Source: Pseudovibrio sp. Alg231-02
GTDB taxonomy: Bacteria; Pseudomonadota; Alphaproteobacteria; Rhizobiales; Stappiaceae
Direction of reading: 5' to 3'
DNA: 64,000 nt
Assembly (NCBI RefSeq): GCF_900143565.1
Contig: NZ_FREX01000001.1
Span: forward strand, 319,640 to 383,639
A program made the translations under genes and the position numbers. Positions 7,879 to 64,000 of this stretch are shown piece by piece (position 1 is the first letter of the stretch; every line of letters starts with the position of its first letter). The notes under the pieces were generated by a model, which was given only the letters and a program-made list of their open reading frames with translations, was not told the DNA's origin and ran no database searches.

Positions 7879-9369
7879 TTAGCCTTCGTAATGATCTTTG
7901 ATCATGCGGTTCAGTGCGCGCACGCCGAAACCGGATGCCCAGCCCTGAGAGATTGCGTTTTTCTTGGAGCCCATTGCAGTGCCGGCCACATCGATGTGTG
8001 CCCACTTGGCCTCATTTGTGTGACGCTGCAGATAAACAGCTGCAGTGCTTGCACCACCCCAACGGCTACCGCCGGTGTTCCGCATATCGGCATTTGGGGT
8101 GTCGACCATCTTGTCGTACTCATCCCCCAGAGGCAAACGCCACATTTTTTCTGCAGTGGTTTCACCAGCTTCGCAGATCTGCGCTGCCAGCTCATCATCA
8201 GCAGAGAAGACACCTGCGCGATGGCCGCCCAGAGCAACCAGACAAGCGCCTGTCAGGGTTGCAAGGTCTACCATGAACTTCGGCTCAAAACGGCTTTGTG
8301 TGTACCAAAGCGCATCACCCAGCACCAAGCGGCCTTCCGCATCGGTGTTGAGGATCTCAACGGTCTGACCAGACATGGTTTTGACGATGTCGCCCGGACG
8401 GATCGCGTTACCATCCGGCATGTTTTCCACCAGACCCAGCACACAGATTGCATTGACTGCAGCTTTACGGCCAGCAAGAGCTTTCATGAGGCCGATGACA
8501 GCTGCTGCGCCGCCCATATCGCCCTTCATGTCTTCCATGCCAGCGCCCGGCTTCAGGGAGATACCACCGGTATCAAACACAACGCCTTTACCAACGAATG
8601 CGATTGGAGCATCGCCTTCCTTGCCGCCATTCCATTTCATGATTGCCAAACGGGAAGGACGAACTGATCCCTGACCAACGGCCAGCAGTGCATTCATGCC
8701 CAGTTCCTGCATCTCTGCTTCGTCAAGGATTTCAACTTCCACGCCGAACTCAGAGAGCTGCTGAGCTTTTGCAGCGAACTCAACCGGGCCAAGCGTGTTG
8801 GCAGGCTCATCAACAAGAGTACGTGCGAGAAGTGTGCCTTCTGCCACAGCCTCAGCTTCTGCCCAAAGTGGCTCAACGGCTGCTGCATCCTGCACCTTCA
8901 GCGTGATTTCGCAGGCTTTGTCGCCGTCTGCTTCTTTCTTAACAGTGCGGTAGGTGTCAAACTTGTAACCACGCAGCAAAGCACCTTGCGCAAAGTCTGC
9001 GGCTTGCTGAGCTGTTGCGATAGCTGGGAAGGTCACTTCTGCACCTCCCGCTTTGAGCGCAAGCAATTTGCCAGCAACTTCACCGCCCAGATTAACCCAG
9101 TCCTGCTCTTTCAGATCGTCGACTTTGCCAAGGCCTGCAACGATCAAACGGTCTGCATCCATACCTTCTGGCGCGAGCAAGTGCATGATACCGGATTTCT
9201 TACCTGTGAAATCAGCCGTTTTAGCAGCGCGCTCAACAGTTTTTCCAGCAGAGCCCATCACACCCTCAGCTTCTGCTGCAAAGCTGAGTTCTTCACCTGC
9301 AAAGACGACCTGAACGGGTGCTGTTGCATCAGAATACTGCGCGATCTTAATGGATGTGAATTGCGTCAT
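7879..9369 (-). CDS. pepA: Leucyl aminopeptidase (M17 family)
   Basis: 496 residues, normal length for PepA. The two metal-binding regions are clear: VGKGVVFDTGGISLKPG (catalytic Lys and metal Asp) and the M17 signature NTDAEGRL. An N-terminal macro-like domain precedes the peptidase domain. The enzyme removes N-terminal residues from peptides in the cytoplasm using two divalent ions; homologues can also bind DNA. The frame is open to 9408, but MTQFTSIKIAQ at 9369 follows GAGGAAAG and is the likely start. Divergent from lptF. Confidence 0.95.
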   Translation of the reverse strand: MTQFTSIKIAQYSDATAPVQVVFAGEELSFAAEAEGVMGSAGKTVERAAKTADFTGKKSGIMHLLAPEGMDADRLIVAGLGKVDDLKEQDWVNLGGEVAGKLLALKAGGAEVTFPAIATAQQAADFAQGALLRGYKFDTYRTVKKEADGDKACEITLKVQDAAAVEPLWAEAEAVAEGTLLARTLVDEPANTLGPVEFAAKAQQLSEFGVEVEILDEAEMQELGMNALLAVGQGSVRPSRLAIMKWNGGKEGDAPIAFVGKGVVFDTGGISLKPGAGMEDMKGDMGGAAAVIGLMKALAGRKAAVNAICVLGLVENMPDGNAIRPGDIVKTMSGQTVEILNTDAEGRLVLGDALWYTQSRFEPKFMVDLATLTGACLVALGGHRAGVFSADDELAAQICEAGETTAEKMWRLPLGDEYDKMVDTPNADMRNTGGSRWGGASTAAVYLQRHTNEAKWAHIDVAGTAMGSKKNAISQGWASGFGVRALNRMIKDHYEG

Positions 9370-10847: not shown

Positions 10848-11938
10848 TGACCGGAAGAACGCTTAGTCTTTACATATCCAAACGGTTTTTGAAGTCGATT
10901 CTGGCCCTCTTTCTGTTTGCTGCCGTTTTGATCTTGCTGTTTGACGTGCTTGAGCTTGTTCGCCGTGGTGGCGATCGTGAAGGGTTTTCTCTTCTGCGCA
11001 TTGCTGCGATTTCTGCCTTGCGCGTTCCACTTCTGCTTGAACAGGTTATTCCGTTTGCCGTCCTTTTTGGCTCTATCTGGGCGTTTGTTACGCTTTCCAG
11101 AAGCCTTGAGCTTGTGGTCGCACGTGCGGCTGGTATTTCGGTCTGGCAGTTTACTGCCCCTGCTCTTCTGACTGGCCTGTTCATCGGCGTTGCTGCTGTG
11201 ATTGGTTATAATCCCGGTGCTGTATATCTGCAGCAAAAATCAGATGAGGTGGCAGAGGGCTTGTTCAGTGTGGAACAAACCTATTTGCTAGAAGGATCTG
11301 GAGAGGTTTGGCTCAGGCAGAACGGCACCGATGGTGAATCAGTTCTTCATGCACGCCACACCAGCGGGCAAGGTGCGTCACTCAATGGTGTCACGATCTT
11401 CTCTTTTGACCGCCAAGGCCAGTTTTCAGAGAGAATCGAAGCACGGCGAGCCGTCCTAGCTGAGGGCATGTGGCGGCTAACTGATGCGGTTGTCTATGCT
11501 GTGGACACTGATCCACAGCATTATGGGAACTACTCTGTCAGTACTTTTTTGACCCCGACGGAGGTCAAGGAGAGCATAGGTTCGCCGGAATCTATTAGTT
11601 TTTGGAGTCTTCCACGCTTTATTGAGTTATCCCAAAGGGCTGGACTACCCGCGTATAGGTATTCTTTACAATATCAGACTCTTCTAGCCAAACCCCTGTT
11701 ACTTGTGGCAATGATTGTCATTGCTGCTGCTGTTTCGCTGCGTGTATCGCGTTTTGGGGGGATTGGCCGCTTGATCGTTTGGGGCATTGTTGCTGGTTTC
11801 GTGCTTTATGCCGTTTCCGAAGTCTCGAAGGATCTGGGTGGTGCTGGAATCGTTCCCACAACGGTTGCAGCATGGGCACCTGGCGTATTTGGGGTTCTTA
11901 TGGGTTTTACAATTCTGTTAAATCAGGAGGATGGTTGA
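10847..11938 (+). CDS. lptG: LPS export ABC transporter permease LptG
   Basis: 363 residues, same architecture as LptF: N-terminal helices, a periplasmic domain (roughly 130-270) and three C-terminal helices. The N-terminus MTGRTLSLYISKRFLKSIL and the ELVVARAAGISVWQF coupling-helix region are typical of LptG. Its ATG shares a base with the lptF stop, and its TGA overlaps the lptD start (TGATG). This implies tight co-translation of the export bridge with its outer-membrane exit protein. Confidence 0.92.
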   Translation: MTGRTLSLYISKRFLKSILALFLFAAVLILLFDVLELVRRGGDREGFSLLRIAAISALRVPLLLEQVIPFAVLFGSIWAFVTLSRSLELVVARAAGISVWQFTAPALLTGLFIGVAAVIGYNPGAVYLQQKSDEVAEGLFSVEQTYLLEGSGEVWLRQNGTDGESVLHARHTSGQGASLNGVTIFSFDRQGQFSERIEARRAVLAEGMWRLTDAVVYAVDTDPQHYGNYSVSTFLTPTEVKESIGSPESISFWSLPRFIELSQRAGLPAYRYSLQYQTLLAKPLLLVAMIVIAAAVSLRVSRFGGIGRLIVWGIVAGFVLYAVSEVSKDLGGAGIVPTTVAAWAPGVFGVLMGFTILLNQEDG

Positions 11939-56934: not shown

Positions 56935-58662
56935 ATGTGTAAATTATGCATGATGGATCAACTACATGTAACTGCAGAAAGTATATCCTACAACTCAAGT
57001 GTCACGGAGCAAAAAGCGGCCCTCAGCGCGCAAGCTGCCGATCAGGTTACAACTCAGGTCGAGGAGGCGGATTTCTTAGCAAATACTCTAGTCTTGAATG
57101 AGGGAGAAGATGCTGACGCAGGGCCCTCGACGCAATACCTCATTGCTGCAGGGGATAGCTTTTCAGGTACACTTGAAACCAATGGGGACCGCGACTGGGT
57201 GGCGATCGACCTTAGTGCGGGATCAAATTATACGATCAACCTTAATGGGAGTGGATCTGCGCCGGTTACAGATACTTATTTAAGAATATACGACGCATCA
57301 GGAAACCTAGTTGCGTTTGACGATGACGGCGGGTCTGGTTTAAATTCATCTTTAGACTTCATGGCATCCACGTCAGGCAGATTTTACATCAGCGCCGCTG
57401 CCTACTCAGATGGGCAGACCGGAAGTTATACTGTCAGTGTGGAGGAGACCTTGCCTCCATCACCGCTGGATGCGCTCGATTGGGGTGGTTCAGCTGTAGA
57501 TACAACAAATATTTCTGTCTACTTTGCGCAAGCTGGTGAAGTTTTTGATGGCCAAAGTTCAGATGGTTGGACGCAGGCGCAGATTGATGGTGCGATGGCG
57601 TCGTTAAACGACTTATCGCAAGGGACAAATCTCACTTTTTCGGTAGCAAGCAGCTCAAATAATGCAGAGTTTAAATTTGTAACATCTGCCTTTGGCGGAA
57701 GTACTTATGCCTATATGAATCCTCCGAGTGAAGCAAATCCAGGCGTAGCCGTTTTCAATACCTCTAATATGAATTTAGCAAACCTAGATCCAGGCTCACT
57801 TGAGTACTTTGTGTTTCAGCATGAAGTTGGTCATGGACTGGGTATGTCGCACCCTCATGATACTGGGGGCGGTTCCAGTGTGATGAACGGGGTTTCTAGC
57901 TCACGCGGGGATTACGGTGACTTCAATCTCAATCAAGGTATCTATACCATGATGAGCTATAATGTCGGCCACGCAGAGCTTTATCCGGAATGGCCGAGTG
58001 ATTATGGCGCGACGGTGGGCCCTATGGCGTTCGACTTGGCGCTTCTACAGGAGAAATACGGAGCAAAAGACGCGAATATAGATAATAATACATATCTCCT
58101 ACCAGAACTTAACGGTTCGGGCACATTTTATTCGTGCATCTGGGACACCGGCGGCATCGATACAATCGCGTATACGGGCTTCAGCAGCGTCAACATCTCG
58201 CTTGTAGCCGCTACTCTTGATTACAGCAGCACAGGCGGTGGTGTACTTTCCTATGCAGAGGGTGTGCGCGGAGGGTATACCATCGCCAATGGTGTTGAGA
58301 TAGAAAATGCTTCTGGTGGCGCTGGCAGTGATACTGTGGTTGGAAACTCCTTGGAGAATGTACTTCAGGGCTTCTCCGGCGATGATTTCCTTGATGGAGC
58401 TCAAGGAGATGACCTTTTAGAAGGTGGTGCGGGACGTGATACCTTTAGTTTCACGAGTATAGGTGACACTGACACTATTGCTGACTTTCAGGACACAATT
58501 GACTTTATTCAGCTCGGCTCTGAATTTGGCGCGGACTCCTTTACAGAGCTGTCTTTGACCAATAGAGATGCCGACGTCATTGTCGCCTTTGAAGATAGTG
58601 AGATCATTTTACAAAATACGGATCTCTCACTTATTGGTGCCGAGGACTTCATCTTCGTATAA
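56935..58662 (+). CDS. Secreted serralysin-type zinc metalloprotease (M10/RTX)
   Basis: 575 residues. MCKLCMMDQL at the start carries a CxxC motif. A PPC-like domain (about 65-170, DSFSGTLETNGDRDWVAIDL) precedes the catalytic domain. The zinc site HEVGHGLGMSH starts at His296 and the Met-turn is YTMMSYNVG. The C-terminal third contains RTX Gly-Asp repeats (SGDDFLDGAQGDDLLEGGAG) and a final hydrophobic strand typical of type I secretion. No type I transporter is adjacent. Such enzymes degrade host or environmental proteins. PPC before the protease is an uncommon order. Confidence 0.88.
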   Translation: MCKLCMMDQLHVTAESISYNSSVTEQKAALSAQAADQVTTQVEEADFLANTLVLNEGEDADAGPSTQYLIAAGDSFSGTLETNGDRDWVAIDLSAGSNYTINLNGSGSAPVTDTYLRIYDASGNLVAFDDDGGSGLNSSLDFMASTSGRFYISAAAYSDGQTGSYTVSVEETLPPSPLDALDWGGSAVDTTNISVYFAQAGEVFDGQSSDGWTQAQIDGAMASLNDLSQGTNLTFSVASSSNNAEFKFVTSAFGGSTYAYMNPPSEANPGVAVFNTSNMNLANLDPGSLEYFVFQHEVGHGLGMSHPHDTGGGSSVMNGVSSSRGDYGDFNLNQGIYTMMSYNVGHAELYPEWPSDYGATVGPMAFDLALLQEKYGAKDANIDNNTYLLPELNGSGTFYSCIWDTGGIDTIAYTGFSSVNISLVAATLDYSSTGGGVLSYAEGVRGGYTIANGVEIENASGGAGSDTVVGNSLENVLQGFSGDDFLDGAQGDDLLEGGAGRDTFSFTSIGDTDTIADFQDTIDFIQLGSEFGADSFTELSLTNRDADVIVAFEDSEIILQNTDLSLIGAEDFIFV

Positions 58663-58734: not shown

Positions 58735-59040
58735 TTACGCTGACTTTGCAGCGTAACACCACGGCATGAGGTCGGTGATCTTGTGATCAACGATTTAGGT
58801 CAGAACCAACGTGAGCCAGGCATGAGGGGCCCACATTGTTGAGCTTGGCTGTTTCGATGAAGGTATAGGCGATTGCCGCAGCTTTGCCGCCACCTTCTGA
58901 TCCCATGAAGAGATAATTTTTCCGCCCAAGAGCCACAGGTCTCATTGCTCGGTCGTGTTGTTGTCGAGCTCCAGTGACCCATTGTCGAGATAAAGCCGTG
59001 TTTTGGGCGGCCGCGTGAGGGCCAGAAGTCGACGTTCATG
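58735..59040 (-). mobile_element. Eroded 3' end of an IS66-type transposase (TnpC)
   Basis: Three frames of the minus strand join to a recognisable IS66 TnpC C-terminus: RLYLDNGSLELDNNTTEQ, then MRPVALGRKNYLFMGSEGGG and AAIAYTFIETAKLNNVGP, then HAWLTLVLT with a stop, IVDHKITDLMPWCYAAKSA and TAA at 58735. At least two frameshifts and one nonsense codon are needed to align them. The N-terminal part and tnpA/tnpB are absent. GTAAGGTGAGCG at 58685 may be the outer inverted repeat. Confidence 0.7.
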
Positions 59041-59777
59041 CATTTCCATCAAGAGTTGAAATCGCCTGATCGAAGGCCTTTATGTGAACGACCTTGGTGC
59101 AGAAGTTCCTACTGACCTTAATCAGATAGACGATCAAATCCTAGCTTAGGACTGGGCGTCTGAAGGTAACCGTATTGAGGCTCTGCACTTTAATGAAAGT
59201 GGTCAAAGCTACTCATTGGGAGGCTGTTAGCAGACGACTTTTAATTCGCGTAGATGAGATGGAACTACTTCTTCTTGGATGCTCAGCAATTAAACATCGG
59301 GCTTTTGGGCCTCCCTTTTATGGAGTGCATCGAGTGCTTAACGTTGTCTTATCGCATACCTCATTGCATTAGACGCGAGAACAACTGATATCTGGCGAAT
59401 ACCATTGTGGTTGGGCATTTGTTGAATCCGTTTTTTACAGGTTAAACTGTTCTCTGTGCTCAACTGCAACCAGCCTGACACGGCTTTTGATACTCATGCG
59501 ACCAACATCACAAAGTTGGACCTCATTTTATAGTGCGCTGCAATAATTTCTCCACTGCTCCGTAAGGGCCTAGACGCGCGCGAATGTGCCGGAGAGCCTG
59601 TCGAGCCAGACCGAAAAACCCAGTTCCTGCCCGCCCTCAGCTATGGCCCGGACCTTGAGCTTATGCCCCCCTGAGCGAGGCGATGGCACCGGCGTCGAAC
59701 TTAAAAGGCATGCAGCAGGCAAAATCTCTTCCCCGCACTTTTTGAGCAGGGAAGACACTGTATTGGCTATCGAAAAA
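59041..59777. other. Non-coding or decayed region between the IS66 remnant and the acyltransferase gene
   Basis: About 740 bases. Short frames exist on both strands (for example 59570-59806 on the minus strand) but none resembles a known family or has a good ribosome-binding site. The right part is GC-richer than the left. It is likely eroded insertion or gene debris. Confidence 0.5.
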
Positions 59778-60758
59778 CTATGCGGGCTCAGCCAGACAAA
59801 AATCACGGCGTAGAACGCATTTTAAATTCCTGTGAGACTGCGCGTATTTTTGTTGGGGCAAACCCAATAATTCGGCGTTCATCCTGTGATCAAAACTATT
59901 TTGCATTTGAGTCGGATCAACCCGTAAATGGTCAAGGAAGGCGTCTTTCGGTAGCACCATTGTTTGTAGGTGAGATGTAGCGATCACATCGGCAGACTGA
60001 GTGTTATCGGTTAGAAGAGCTGTTTCGCCAAAAAACTGACCTTGGCCCAAAACGCCCAGAACATCACCAGAAGCGGCATGGCGCACTTCCGCCTCGCCTT
60101 CGATGATCACAAAACCCGTGTCTCCCTTTGCACCAGCCTGCAAAACAGTTTCGCCCTTGCTAAACAGCATATACTCATAGGATTGCAAGAAATTATAGAG
60201 TTGGGTGCGTTGCGCAAACGTTTGAAGATTGTCCGCCAAGTCTCTCATATCCAACATCATAGGGATGAAGTTCCCCCCCAAGTGTGGGGCATATTGCATA
60301 TCTCCAACAGGCTTGAAACCGACACGGGTTACAAGTTTGCTGATAGCCGGGTTCGTTGGCGCGATGACATGCGTAATGTCGTTTGAAACGGCGAAAATCG
60401 CCGATAACGAAATCAGGTGCAGTGCAATACCGAGCGAGCGCTGTGCTTCACGAACACAGAACATGCCCACACTCATCATATTGACGTTCTCCTTTGGCAG
60501 GTGCTGACGAAAATCGTAATAATTGTCCGCAGGGACGCCTGCTGGGGAATCGACGTTAATCCTTAGCGCGCCAATAATCTTGTCGTCTCGCATCGCCAGC
60601 ATGTTTCGCGTGGTCGATAACATGTCGAACTTGTCAACAATCCTCTGGTCGTTGGTCGGCTGAAACAGCTTTTCCTGCAAACAGAACAAGTCATAACGCA
60701 ACTTCAGAATGCTATCGATCTGTTCTGGATCTTTGGTGATGCTCACTCGGATGGGCAT
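59778..60758 (-). CDS. FeeM/LuxI-like N-acyltransferase fused to a cyclic-nucleotide-binding-like domain
   Basis: 326 residues. The N-terminal half follows the acyl-homoserine-lactone synthase/FeeM pattern: LRYDLFCLQEKLF with Arg21, VDKFD with Asp42 and Asp45, GALRI with Arg66, and SVGMFCVREAQRSLGIALHL. Residues about 190-285 form a CRP-like cNMP fold (GDTGFVIIEGEAEVRH, GQGQFFGETALLTD). In the phosphate-binding cassette the canonical Arg is Gln254 (FGETALLTDNTQSADV), so binding of ordinary cAMP or cGMP is doubtful. FeeM enzymes N-acylate amino acids from acyl-ACP. GAGGT nine bases before the ATG; the first 16 bases overlap the upstream methyltransferase gene. Confidence 0.75.
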   Translation of the reverse strand: MPIRVSITKDPEQIDSILKLRYDLFCLQEKLFQPTNDQRIVDKFDMLSTTRNMLAMRDDKIIGALRINVDSPAGVPADNYYDFRQHLPKENVNMMSVGMFCVREAQRSLGIALHLISLSAIFAVSNDITHVIAPTNPAISKLVTRVGFKPVGDMQYAPHLGGNFIPMMLDMRDLADNLQTFAQRTQLYNFLQSYEYMLFSKGETVLQAGAKGDTGFVIIEGEAEVRHAASGDVLGVLGQGQFFGETALLTDNTQSADVIATSHLQTMVLPKDAFLDHLRVDPTQMQNSFDHRMNAELLGLPQQKYAQSHRNLKCVLRRDFCLAEPA

Positions 60759-61660
60759 GACGCTTCTACCTCATCGCGAGTGCTGCAAGCTTGTACCTGG
60801 ACCAAACATTCCCCACGGTGCAACATTGTTGGCGTGATGTTTGGTAGGTAACGATCTTTCAGGCTGCCTGCCTCGGCCACATCCAGCAAAACATACCCTT
60901 GGTCCTTGATAAAACCGGCTAAATCCTTGAGAGCAATTGTCCAACTCAAGGGTTCGCCTTTTATGCGCAGATAGAGGTTCAACACAGGACCACAGTTGTT
61001 TTTGGGGTCGGAGAAGGAAGTAACGCTGCTGAACACAATCCGCGTCTTTTCCCCCAGTTCTGCCAAGCCGGAAAAGAGTGTTTTGACATCCGAAACCGGC
61101 AAGTACATGAGCACGCCTTCGCAGATGAAAACAGTAGGCATAGCGACGTCATAGGCCTCATGAGATACTAACACTTCCTTGGCGCTGGTCTTTTTGAAGT
61201 CCACTTCAATCAGATGGAAGTTGTTGGAGATCTGGCCATCCAGAGCCGATTGCTTGTGAGCGCTGGTTGCCGGGTGATCCAGTTCAAAAAAGGTAACCTC
61301 AGGAAATTGCGAATGCAGCTCATAGGCCAGTGTGTCGAAACCCGCGCCAAGGTTCACAACCATCGTGTAGCCTTGGGAAATTGCGTTTTCGACGGCATCG
61401 CGAATATATTTTTTGCGTAACCCGTAATGAGTGGAAATGCCGGGCAATATCAGCCGTTCCATCATTGGAACCAGCGCACGAAACAAACGGCTGTTGAGCT
61501 GCTTCAGTCGTTTTCTGCCTTCCTCAGATCTTTCAAGGATGGTCTTGCCTGTTTTAAGAGTTTCTGCTGTGACAAGATGTCGATATTCTGGTTTTTCTGC
61601 GATCAACAATAAACCTTGTAACACTGTGTAAGCGGTTGAACTTGCAACTCTGTCTTTCAT
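60743..61660 (-). CDS. LCMT/PPM-family SAM-dependent methyltransferase
   Basis: 305 residues. NLGAGFDTLAYELHSQFP (Gly105-Thr110 core), FFELDHPATSAHKQSAL and FICEGVLMYLPVSDV are the SAM and family motifs of leucine carboxyl methyltransferase-like proteins (Pfam LCM). Bacterial members methylate carboxyl or hydroxyl groups of small metabolites. GGAGCAAG precedes the ATG. Overlap with the acyltransferase gene argues for a two-step product. A palindrome lies just upstream (61687). Confidence 0.85.
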   Translation of the reverse strand: MKDRVASSTAYTVLQGLLLIAEKPEYRHLVTAETLKTGKTILERSEEGRKRLKQLNSRLFRALVPMMERLILPGISTHYGLRKKYIRDAVENAISQGYTMVVNLGAGFDTLAYELHSQFPEVTFFELDHPATSAHKQSALDGQISNNFHLIEVDFKKTSAKEVLVSHEAYDVAMPTVFICEGVLMYLPVSDVKTLFSGLAELGEKTRIVFSSVTSFSDPKNNCGPVLNLYLRIKGEPLSWTIALKDLAGFIKDQGYVLLDVAEAGSLKDRYLPNITPTMLHRGECLVQVQACSTRDEVEASCPSE

Positions 61661-61928: not shown

Positions 61929-64000
61929 TCAGAACTGCAGAGCAAGGTTCATCTTAAGCCCCTGATCGGTGAAGCCAGAACCGAACTGACCATTGTAGGT
62001 CAGACTGAGGGTCGCATTCGCCCCAAGATCGACTGCCGTGCCCAGATCGAGCAGGAAGGCATCTCTGGCGATCGGCACACCGGCAACCGAGAAATCGTCC
62101 CCCCCATCAAAGGCATGATGAGCAAGCGGCGTCACGTCGCCGAAAGCGTGCCGCCACCCCACCATCGCACTCAGCTGCGCCGAGGCAGCCCCGAGATCAG
62201 CTCTGGTTTCAGCACGCAGTCCGATGGTGGTGAAGGTCTGGTCCTTGTCCTGGTCATTGGCCGTCAACGCAGCTACGCCGCCAGCTTCAGAATAGCCGTC
62301 ACTCGTCAGGTGCACATAAGCGAGGCCAGCGAAGGGCTCCACACTCACCGCACCGTGATCGAAGCGATATCCGGCCTCGCCAAAGATTTGGGTGGTTCGT
62401 GCATCATAGGACGCTGACAGTTTCTCTGAGAACCCGGTAAAGGCGACAGAGCGTTCCGTGTCGATATCATGCCATGCATAGCTGGCGCCAATGCGTAGCC
62501 CTACAGCGCCGAGATCGGCACCGCCATAGGCGCCAAGATGCAGTGTGTCTGCTGAAGCGAACGACGCACGATCACTCACCTTGAAGCTGGAATTATCATA
62601 GCCACCGAAAAGACCAATGCGGGCATTTTCGCCGATCCTTGCATCACCGCCCACGAAGAAACCGCCTATCGTCCGGTCAAGCTTTGAGGCATTACCATTG
62701 CCTCTCCAGTCGCCCCACGCACCGAAGCCCTTGCCCCAGAACGCGAAGCTGTCGCTGATGCGTTTTTCGGTCTGCACTTGTCCGTCGGCGGCCACGGCAC
62801 CTGTTGCAATGCGCACACGGTTCAAGGCCGCTTCGCGCGCAAAGCGACTGTCTTCGATCAGCGCTGTCCTGATCGAAGCGTGGCTTTCGCCCGAAAGCTG
62901 GTCAAGGGCTTGCGGAGCCTCCGCATTGGAAAGGTTCAACACCGCGTTGTGCAGGTTTCCGCTTTCGAGCGAAGACACGCCACCGCCCGTCGCACACTGA
63001 TTGGCACTCAGTCCGGAAACGCAGAAAGTGGAGGCGGCCAGTTGCGACGTCAGATAGACGTTGTTGGTATCGTATGAAACTGCGAAATCAAGGAACGCAT
63101 AGTCATCGATTGGCACTGAGGAATCGAACGTCCCGGTCACGCCGCCGCCACTGGTAATGATGGTGTAAACCGTATTAGCGGCATAAGTTGATCCGTTGTC
63201 GGTCCCATTCTCCGGCCTGACATGCACCGCTCCACCATTGATCGTGACGGTATCACTGGCAGCCAGCAGATCGTTGTTGATGCCCGCTGTGTTGCCACCA
63301 TCGTTCAATTCAACCTCATAAGTCGAACCGGTGTTGAAAACGGTCGATACAGTATTCAGTGTGCCGATGGAGTTGCCCGGCGCCATCACTCCGCCAGAAT
63401 TGACGCTAACCGCCCCCAATGATCCCGAACCACCAAGGGTTCCGCCATTGATCGTGACATCGCCAATGGAACCATCAACAACCAGCGTGCCCGCAGAGAC
63501 CGAGGTGTTGCCGGTATAAGTGTTGGTACCAGTCAGGATCGTAGTGCCAAGGTCGGTCTTTTCCAGCGAACCAGTCCCGGTCAAGTTGGAGGCGATGGTG
63601 GCCGTGTATCCGGCACCTGCTGCGGTTCCATCCCCGACCCGGATCGCGGCGGCTCCTGTCAGAGCAATGTCGCCGCCAGTTACAGTATAGCCGTCAACGG
63701 CAAACTGCAGGCCTGCCGAGGCAGCGACCCCAGCGCCATCCACCGTGATCATCCCCGCATCCGCCTGGAAGATCAGGAAGCTGTCGGGATCATAACGCGC
63801 GCTTGTCGAGCCGCTGGCATCTGTCCAGTTGATGCTTGCCGTGGTCCAGGAGCCCGTACCGCCATGAACGGTTCCATCAGCGCTGGTCACCGCTCCATTC
63901 CAGAAGCTCAGGAGAAGTGGGTTTACCATGAGATTGACGTGCCCGGCTGTCGCAGTTTGAACACTGTAGGTGTGGGCTGTTGGTGCAGTCCCCACGATCA
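61929..64000 (-). CDS. Autotransporter, C-terminal 690 residues (N-terminus beyond the window)
   Basis: The open frame runs off the right edge; about 690 residues are visible. The passenger part contains autotransporter-associated beta-strand repeats (TTILTGTNTYTGNTSVSAGT, GTLGGSGSLGAVSVNSGGVM, APGNSIG). A linker with paired Cys (STFCVSGLSANQCATGGG) leads to a beta-barrel domain (SFAFWGKGFGAWGDWRGNGN ... YGGADLGAVGLRIGASYAW) ending in LALQF. Type V secretion threads the passenger across the outer membrane. The gene looks G+C-richer than its neighbours, a sign of transfer. Passenger function unknown. Confidence 0.9.
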   Translation of the reverse strand, partial: IVGTAPTAHTYSVQTATAGHVNLMVNPLLLSFWNGAVTSADGTVHGGTGSWTTASINWTDASGSTSARYDPDSFLIFQADAGMITVDGAGVAASAGLQFAVDGYTVTGGDIALTGAAAIRVGDGTAAGAGYTATIASNLTGTGSLEKTDLGTTILTGTNTYTGNTSVSAGTLVVDGSIGDVTINGGTLGGSGSLGAVSVNSGGVMAPGNSIGTLNTVSTVFNTGSTYEVELNDGGNTAGINNDLLAASDTVTINGGAVHVRPENGTDNGSTYAANTVYTIITSGGGVTGTFDSSVPIDDYAFLDFAVSYDTNNVYLTSQLAASTFCVSGLSANQCATGGGVSSLESGNLHNAVLNLSNAEAPQALDQLSGESHASIRTALIEDSRFAREAALNRVRIATGAVAADGQVQTEKRISDSFAFWGKGFGAWGDWRGNGNASKLDRTIGGFFVGGDARIGENARIGLFGGYDNSSFKVSDRASFASADTLHLGAYGGADLGAVGLRIGASYAWHDIDTERSVAFTGFSEKLSASYDARTTQIFGEAGYRFDHGAVSVEPFAGLAYVHLTSDGYSEAGGVAALTANDQDKDQTFTTIGLRAETRADLGAASAQLSAMVGWRHAFGDVTPLAHHAFDGGDDFSVAGVPIARDAFLLDLGTAVDLGANATLSLTYNGQFGSGFTDQGLKMNLALQF

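Follow-up and report, generated by a model that had tools for sequence, protein, structure and literature searches.

Background

The closest described counterparts of the gene pair considered here are the N-acyl amino acid synthase FeeM (PF21926; structure 2g0b), the LuxI-type N-acyl-homoserine lactone (AHL) synthases such as LasI (1ro5), TofI (3p2h) and BjaI (5w8a), and the N-acylalanine methyl esters (NAMEs) of the Roseobacter group, reported from marine Roseovarius and Loktanella (PMC6296433). NAMEs are AHL look-alikes and, going by the accessible text of a 2024 paper, no candidate synthase had been found by then and none is named there (PMC11580390). The initial annotation of our sequence had no proven gene set to name for them. 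The pair lies in a 64,000-nucleotide stretch of Pseudovibrio sp. Alg231-02 (NZ_FREX01000001.1, positions 319,640 to 383,639; "the window" hereafter means this whole stretch) and encodes a putative carboxyl methyltransferase and a FeeM/LuxI-type acyltransferase fused to a cyclic nucleotide monophosphate (cNMP)-binding domain. We give about even chances to the proposal that it is a minimal mobile cassette making an N-acyl amino acid methyl ester, by acylation and then methyl esterification, a product of the same class as the Roseobacter NAMEs.

Two other systems share part of this layout. In lusichelin biosynthesis, the authors who described LusM, which has an LCM (leucine carboxyl methyltransferase) domain, propose that it forms the terminal methyl ester, and they cite StnF2 and MelK for similar functions (PMC12210259, accessible text). 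The methyltransferase of the window resembles LusM in its LCM domain and in its predicted part, a terminal methyl ester in a biosynthetic cluster, but LusM acts on a nonribosomal peptide synthetase (NRPS)/polyketide synthase product whereas the partner here is a single acyltransferase of the GCN5-related N-acetyltransferase (GNAT) fold. The stieleriacine N-acyl (dehydro)tyrosine clusters likewise combine a gene for an N-acyl amino acid synthase with a nearby methyltransferase gene; according to the portion of the report that is accessible, however, methyltransferases were sought there for C- or O-methylation of the tyrosine ring, and ThiF and nitroreductase genes lie near, unlike the direct neighbours of the window pair (PMC12479983).

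In its accessible part, a survey of clusters in Pseudovibrio from 2017 mentions those for homoserine lactones and does not contain the words FeeM or N-acyl (PMC5563371). In the literature found there was no report of NAMEs from Pseudovibrio, and a search for a description of the pair, with most subscription papers outside its scope, returned none. Each part is of a familiar kind; what is new, within the reach of these searches, is the coupling, the fusion and the clade.

Results and discussion

Transcription on the minus strand from 61660 to 59778 reads the methyltransferase gene first (60743..61660, 305 amino acids), with an ATG start and GGAG 5 bases upstream, and then the fusion gene (59778..60758, 326 amino acids), with GAGG 10 bases ahead of its ATG. 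Both frames are open and share 16 bases including the stop codon (60743..60758), as the initial annotation had described, and this 16-base overlap is repeated in the orthologues of two other Pseudovibrio genomes, G009 (L002, 2382-2397) and G015 (L003, 2391-2406). The two frames are likely to be translationally coupled through it.

The first gene was correctly placed in the LCMT family from its motifs, as its product scores 102 bits with PF04072 (LCM; cut-off 22.3) and 113.2 bits with TIGR00027 (cut-off 93.55) and has the S-adenosyl-L-methionine (SAM)-site motifs LGAG-DTL, E-DHP and ICEGVL-YL. These motifs are invariant across the six closest sequences (alignment A5) and partly retained in five remoter relatives, and the profile of the same alignment reaches the PDB structures 2ckd (E 7.8e-12), 6id6 (2.8e-11) and LCMT1 3iei (3.6e-6). 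Among the methyltransferases compared, the closest outside the genus come from genomes G857 (48% identity) and G903 (47%). Both are found in clusters with a gene for a condensation-adenylation-peptidyl carrier protein-thioesterase (C-A-PCP-TE) NRPS, a cNMP-domain patatin/neuropathy target esterase (NTE) gene and a radical SAM gene (L194 8130-17000 and L195 238-10078); a VTT-domain gene was confirmed in the G903 cluster only. In these clusters, too, an LCM enzyme may act as a capping enzyme, on an acylated amino acid released with its carboxyl free.

The second gene is indeed an acyltransferase fused to a cNMP-like domain. Residues 17-170 (60249..60710) match PF21926 (FeeM) with 77.5 bits (E 1.2e-21; curated cut-off 27), and residues 199-278 (59925..60164) match PF00027 (cNMP_binding) with 60.5 bits (cut-off 27.5). 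The comparison of the predicted structure with FeeM and LuxI folds, suggested when the locus was annotated, gave an alignment: in the model (mean predicted local distance difference test, pLDDT, 81.2) the best PDB match is FeeM 2g0b, ahead of the AHL synthases by about 3 Z units. Among the profiles, that of the three Pseudovibrio acyltransferase domains reached no PDB chain and that of the five-member clade was weak against PDB (best E 0.011; FeeM 1.7), so the statement on the FeeM fold rests on the model and on a broader mixed profile (A6). Although it passes the FeeM cut-off and has the predicted fold, the window protein differs from FeeM in its identity of only 16%, its apparent separation from the FeeM-like rows sampled, its cNMP fusion and its carboxyl methyltransferase partner. 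Assignment to the PEP-CTERM/exosortase-linked acyltransferases (TIGR03694) was rejected, the window protein scoring 34.6 bits and the copy in genome G807, described below, 51.4 bits against a cut-off of 111.95.

The protein also differs from the LuxI-type synthases. It scores 14.6 bits with PF00765 (cut-off 24), and the Glu-x-x-Arg motif is missing in its clade, which has SVGM, SASQ and HSSL at the position of ESSR in the AHL-synthase rows L045, L059 and L063. The Arg/Asp motifs of AHL and FeeM synthases that had been noted from the sequence are present, but they make up no more than a part of the LuxI set, and its Glu-x-x-Arg part is lacking. Its neighbours, autotransporter and M10 protease genes, also set the pair apart from the AHL synthases.

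It is possible, although we consider it rather unlikely, that the acyltransferase has as acceptor an amine that is not a free alpha-amino acid, such as a diamine, a modified amino acid or, in the manner of AHL synthesis, SAM. The methyltransferase would then act on some other group or on the fatty acyl part, and no amino acid methyl ester would be formed. The PF21926 cut-off is also passed by two AHL synthases (32-38 bits) and two OlsB-like rows (29-38), so the family name leaves the acceptor unfixed; the window clade scores higher (77.5-87.6 bits), in favour of the main proposal, and two FeeM-like rows score 160-186. In a midpoint-rooted tree with long branches and without a characterised FeeM row, the window clade is separate (support 100/97) from the 25-row FeeM-like group and nearer to the AHL-synthase and OlsB-like rows, and one clade member, in genome G835, exceeds both the FeeM and the AHL-synthase cut-offs (PF00765 39.9 bits against 24). 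To our knowledge, moreover, the substrates of most LCM/TIGR00027 members are unknown. Against this stand FeeM as the best structural match, the low PF00765 score of the window protein and the carboxyl methyltransferase partner, which fits a product with a free carboxylate.

The G835 relative (L200 195-740; 37% identity) is free-standing and has no cNMP domain, and its short contig carries no methyltransferase.

Synthesis of an N-acyl amino acid methyl ester would call upon both genes, and their association was found again in a second lineage. With E up to 0.001 as the threshold, both families were sought in two samples, one of 385 genomes of the class and one of 329 of the phylum, each including the window's own genome. 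FeeM-family matches were present in 99 and 73 of these genomes and LCM matches in 29 and 45, respectively. Both families occur in 28 different sampled genomes, and at the positions listed they are arranged head-to-tail in the window's own and in one of the 27 others (G807), where a simple estimate of the chance expectation is about 0.002-0.005. The methyltransferase gene of G807 (L193, 7196-8104) is followed by the fusion gene (8101-9036) with a 4-base overlap, so that gene order, overlap and fusion, the co-occurrence proposed as a check in the initial annotation, are all found there. The two products are 39% (methyltransferase) and 35% (fusion) identical to those of the window and score 87.6 bits for FeeM, 75.6 for cNMP and 107.8 for LCM. 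Since G807 belongs to another class of the same phylum and has magnetochrome domains over the cut-off, it is probably a magnetococcus. All 20 genomes around it match the fusion profile; among the matches listed, the acyltransferase domain is covered in G807 only and the others cover the cNMP part. Genome G717 was rejected as a further instance: its two families lie about 2 kb apart, divergent and with a gene between, and its FeeM-family match is OlsB-like and followed by an OlsA-like gene (best NCBIfam matches, under their cut-offs).

The arginine of cNMP domains holds the cyclic phosphate. Aligned to protein kinase G, the window domain has a glutamine opposite this phosphate-binding residue; the glutamine is shared by all three Pseudovibrio copies (window, L002 and L003), while G807 has arginine. 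Canonical cNMP binding has probably been lost in the Pseudovibrio fusion, judging from this residue; the regulatory domain that was expected to let an intracellular ligand tune the output is present, but its binding of cyclic nucleotides in Pseudovibrio is doubtful. FeeM-family fusions of a different clade (L040 1429-2610, L041 103-2589 and L046 856-1977) also have a C-terminal cNMP domain, Pfam-confirmed for L040 only, and keep the phosphate-binding arginine. As such fusions are found in separate FeeM-family clades, the FeeM-cNMP fusion has probably arisen more than once.

Both genes are present in 3 of 16 Pseudovibrio genomes (the window's own, G000, together with G009 and G015); the G015 orthologue corresponds to that of P. 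ascidiaceicola DSM 16392 (NZ_FOSK01000005.1), the sole match of an acyltransferase scan of named-genome contigs whose pattern step is insensitive. In an order-wide sample of 397 genomes, which does not contain G009 and G015, the acyltransferase domain was matched in three: the genome of the window and two others, with weak E values of 9e-5 and 4e-4. The methyltransferases of G009 and G015 are 89% and 83% identical to that of the window, and the acyltransferase domains 96% and 84%. Purifying selection acts on both genes: in three pairwise comparisons each, the ratio of nonsynonymous to synonymous substitution rates (dN/dS) was 0.17-0.22 in the methyltransferase, 0.12-0.18 in the acyltransferase domain and 0.21-0.36 in the cNMP domain.

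The methyltransferase and the fusion move together as a unit. In both G009 and G015 the pair is flanked by a FAD oxidoreductase gene and a helix-turn-helix (HTH)-cupin regulator gene, and the same flanking genes occur without it (an empty site) in G005, as they do in G000 at the corresponding locus on contig C7. The P. ascidiaceicola cassette is flanked by a near-direct repeat of about 65 bases (L131 ~8902-8967 and 11633-11697) whose counterpart at the empty site of G005 is present in a single copy, which would fit a duplication of the target. The pair of the window stands instead behind an autotransporter beta-domain gene on the minus strand (61929..63998, extending beyond the window). Eroded pieces of the 3' part of this gene adjoin the pair of G015 (P. 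ascidiaceicola), so that a linkage of the two before the pair moved is probable.

Two suggestions about the cassette were rejected. The FAD oxidoreductase (DAO family) is not a third member, since G005 has a 95% identical copy and G000 a 77% copy elsewhere, neither adjoining the pair. Carriage by plasmids or viruses was the other: against plasmids the window acyltransferase had no match at E 1e-5, the methyltransferase matched 26 records, all below 60% identity and none covering 80%, and the G807 fusion matched 283 records, none covering 80% and the 15 listed all starting no earlier than residue 108; in two scans of viral contigs no relative turned up.

On its other side the pair is neighboured by the gene of an M10 peptidase of the serralysin type that has RTX repeats and a PPC domain (56935-58662). 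Between these, at 58800-59900, homology to the orthologous cassettes is broken and the three small frames tested had no Pfam match. The break reaches into the fusion gene. The protein stops matching its orthologues from about residue 283, and DNA homology of the cassette ends at 59913 against L002 and at 59878 against L003, so the last ~40 residues are a junction tail (59778..59912); residues 290-300 and 302-326 are predicted with pLDDT below 50. The window copy may be decaying, the replaced tail marking a gene that is being lost and the G009/G015 form being the working system, where synthesis of the methyl ester could proceed as proposed. The non-homologous, low-confidence tail and the lack of a Pfam family in the three downstream frames are in keeping with this idea. 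Nevertheless both frames are open, the acyltransferase domain is 96% identical to that of G009 with a dN/dS of 0.12, and the breakpoint falls past the Pfam cNMP match, and we hold decay to be a doubtful explanation, with perhaps one chance in four.

The genus has a second FeeM-family locus. In G000 (contig C5, ~273966; L067 5817-7091) a gene of this family encoding 424 amino acids has as neighbours a DUF2478 gene and a ThiF gene in divergent orientation, and genes of this stronger type are present in 7 of the 16 Pseudovibrio genomes. An arrangement of this sort, with a synthase close to ThiF, has been reported for the N-acyl tyrosines of Stieleria, as far as the accessible text goes (PMC12479983). 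An antiSMASH "N-acyl amino acid" region mentioned, in the accessible text, for another P. ascidiaceicola strain may correspond to this second locus or to the pair (PMC12424307).

Proposed function

In the pathway that we propose, the acyltransferase domain would move a fatty acyl group, probably from an acyl carrier protein, onto the amino group of an amino acid, and the coupled LCM-type methyltransferase would use SAM to esterify the free carboxyl of the resulting N-acyl amino acid. The product would belong to the N-acylalanine methyl ester type of neutral lipo-amino acids. Of this route, already suggested in the initial annotation, the genes, their domains, overlap, conservation, joint movement and purifying selection are borne out, as is the predicted fold. 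What we infer is which acyl donor and acceptor are used, in which order the steps run, what the product and its role are, and whether there is any regulation. A reversed order, in which the amino acid methyl ester is made first and then acylated, is improbable: although the methyltransferase gene comes first in both lineages, gene order does not set reaction order, and for LusM the proposed substrate is the finished product (PMC12210259, accessible text). The cNMP domain may be an ancestral regulatory or oligomerisation module, and could sense a cyclic nucleotide in the magnetochrome-bearing bacterium G807.

Conclusions

The pair offers a concrete, small and portable candidate for NAME chemistry. 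If the proposal is true, it would provide a genomic marker for this class of lipo-amino acids and a case of a synthase fused to a nucleotide-sensor fold.
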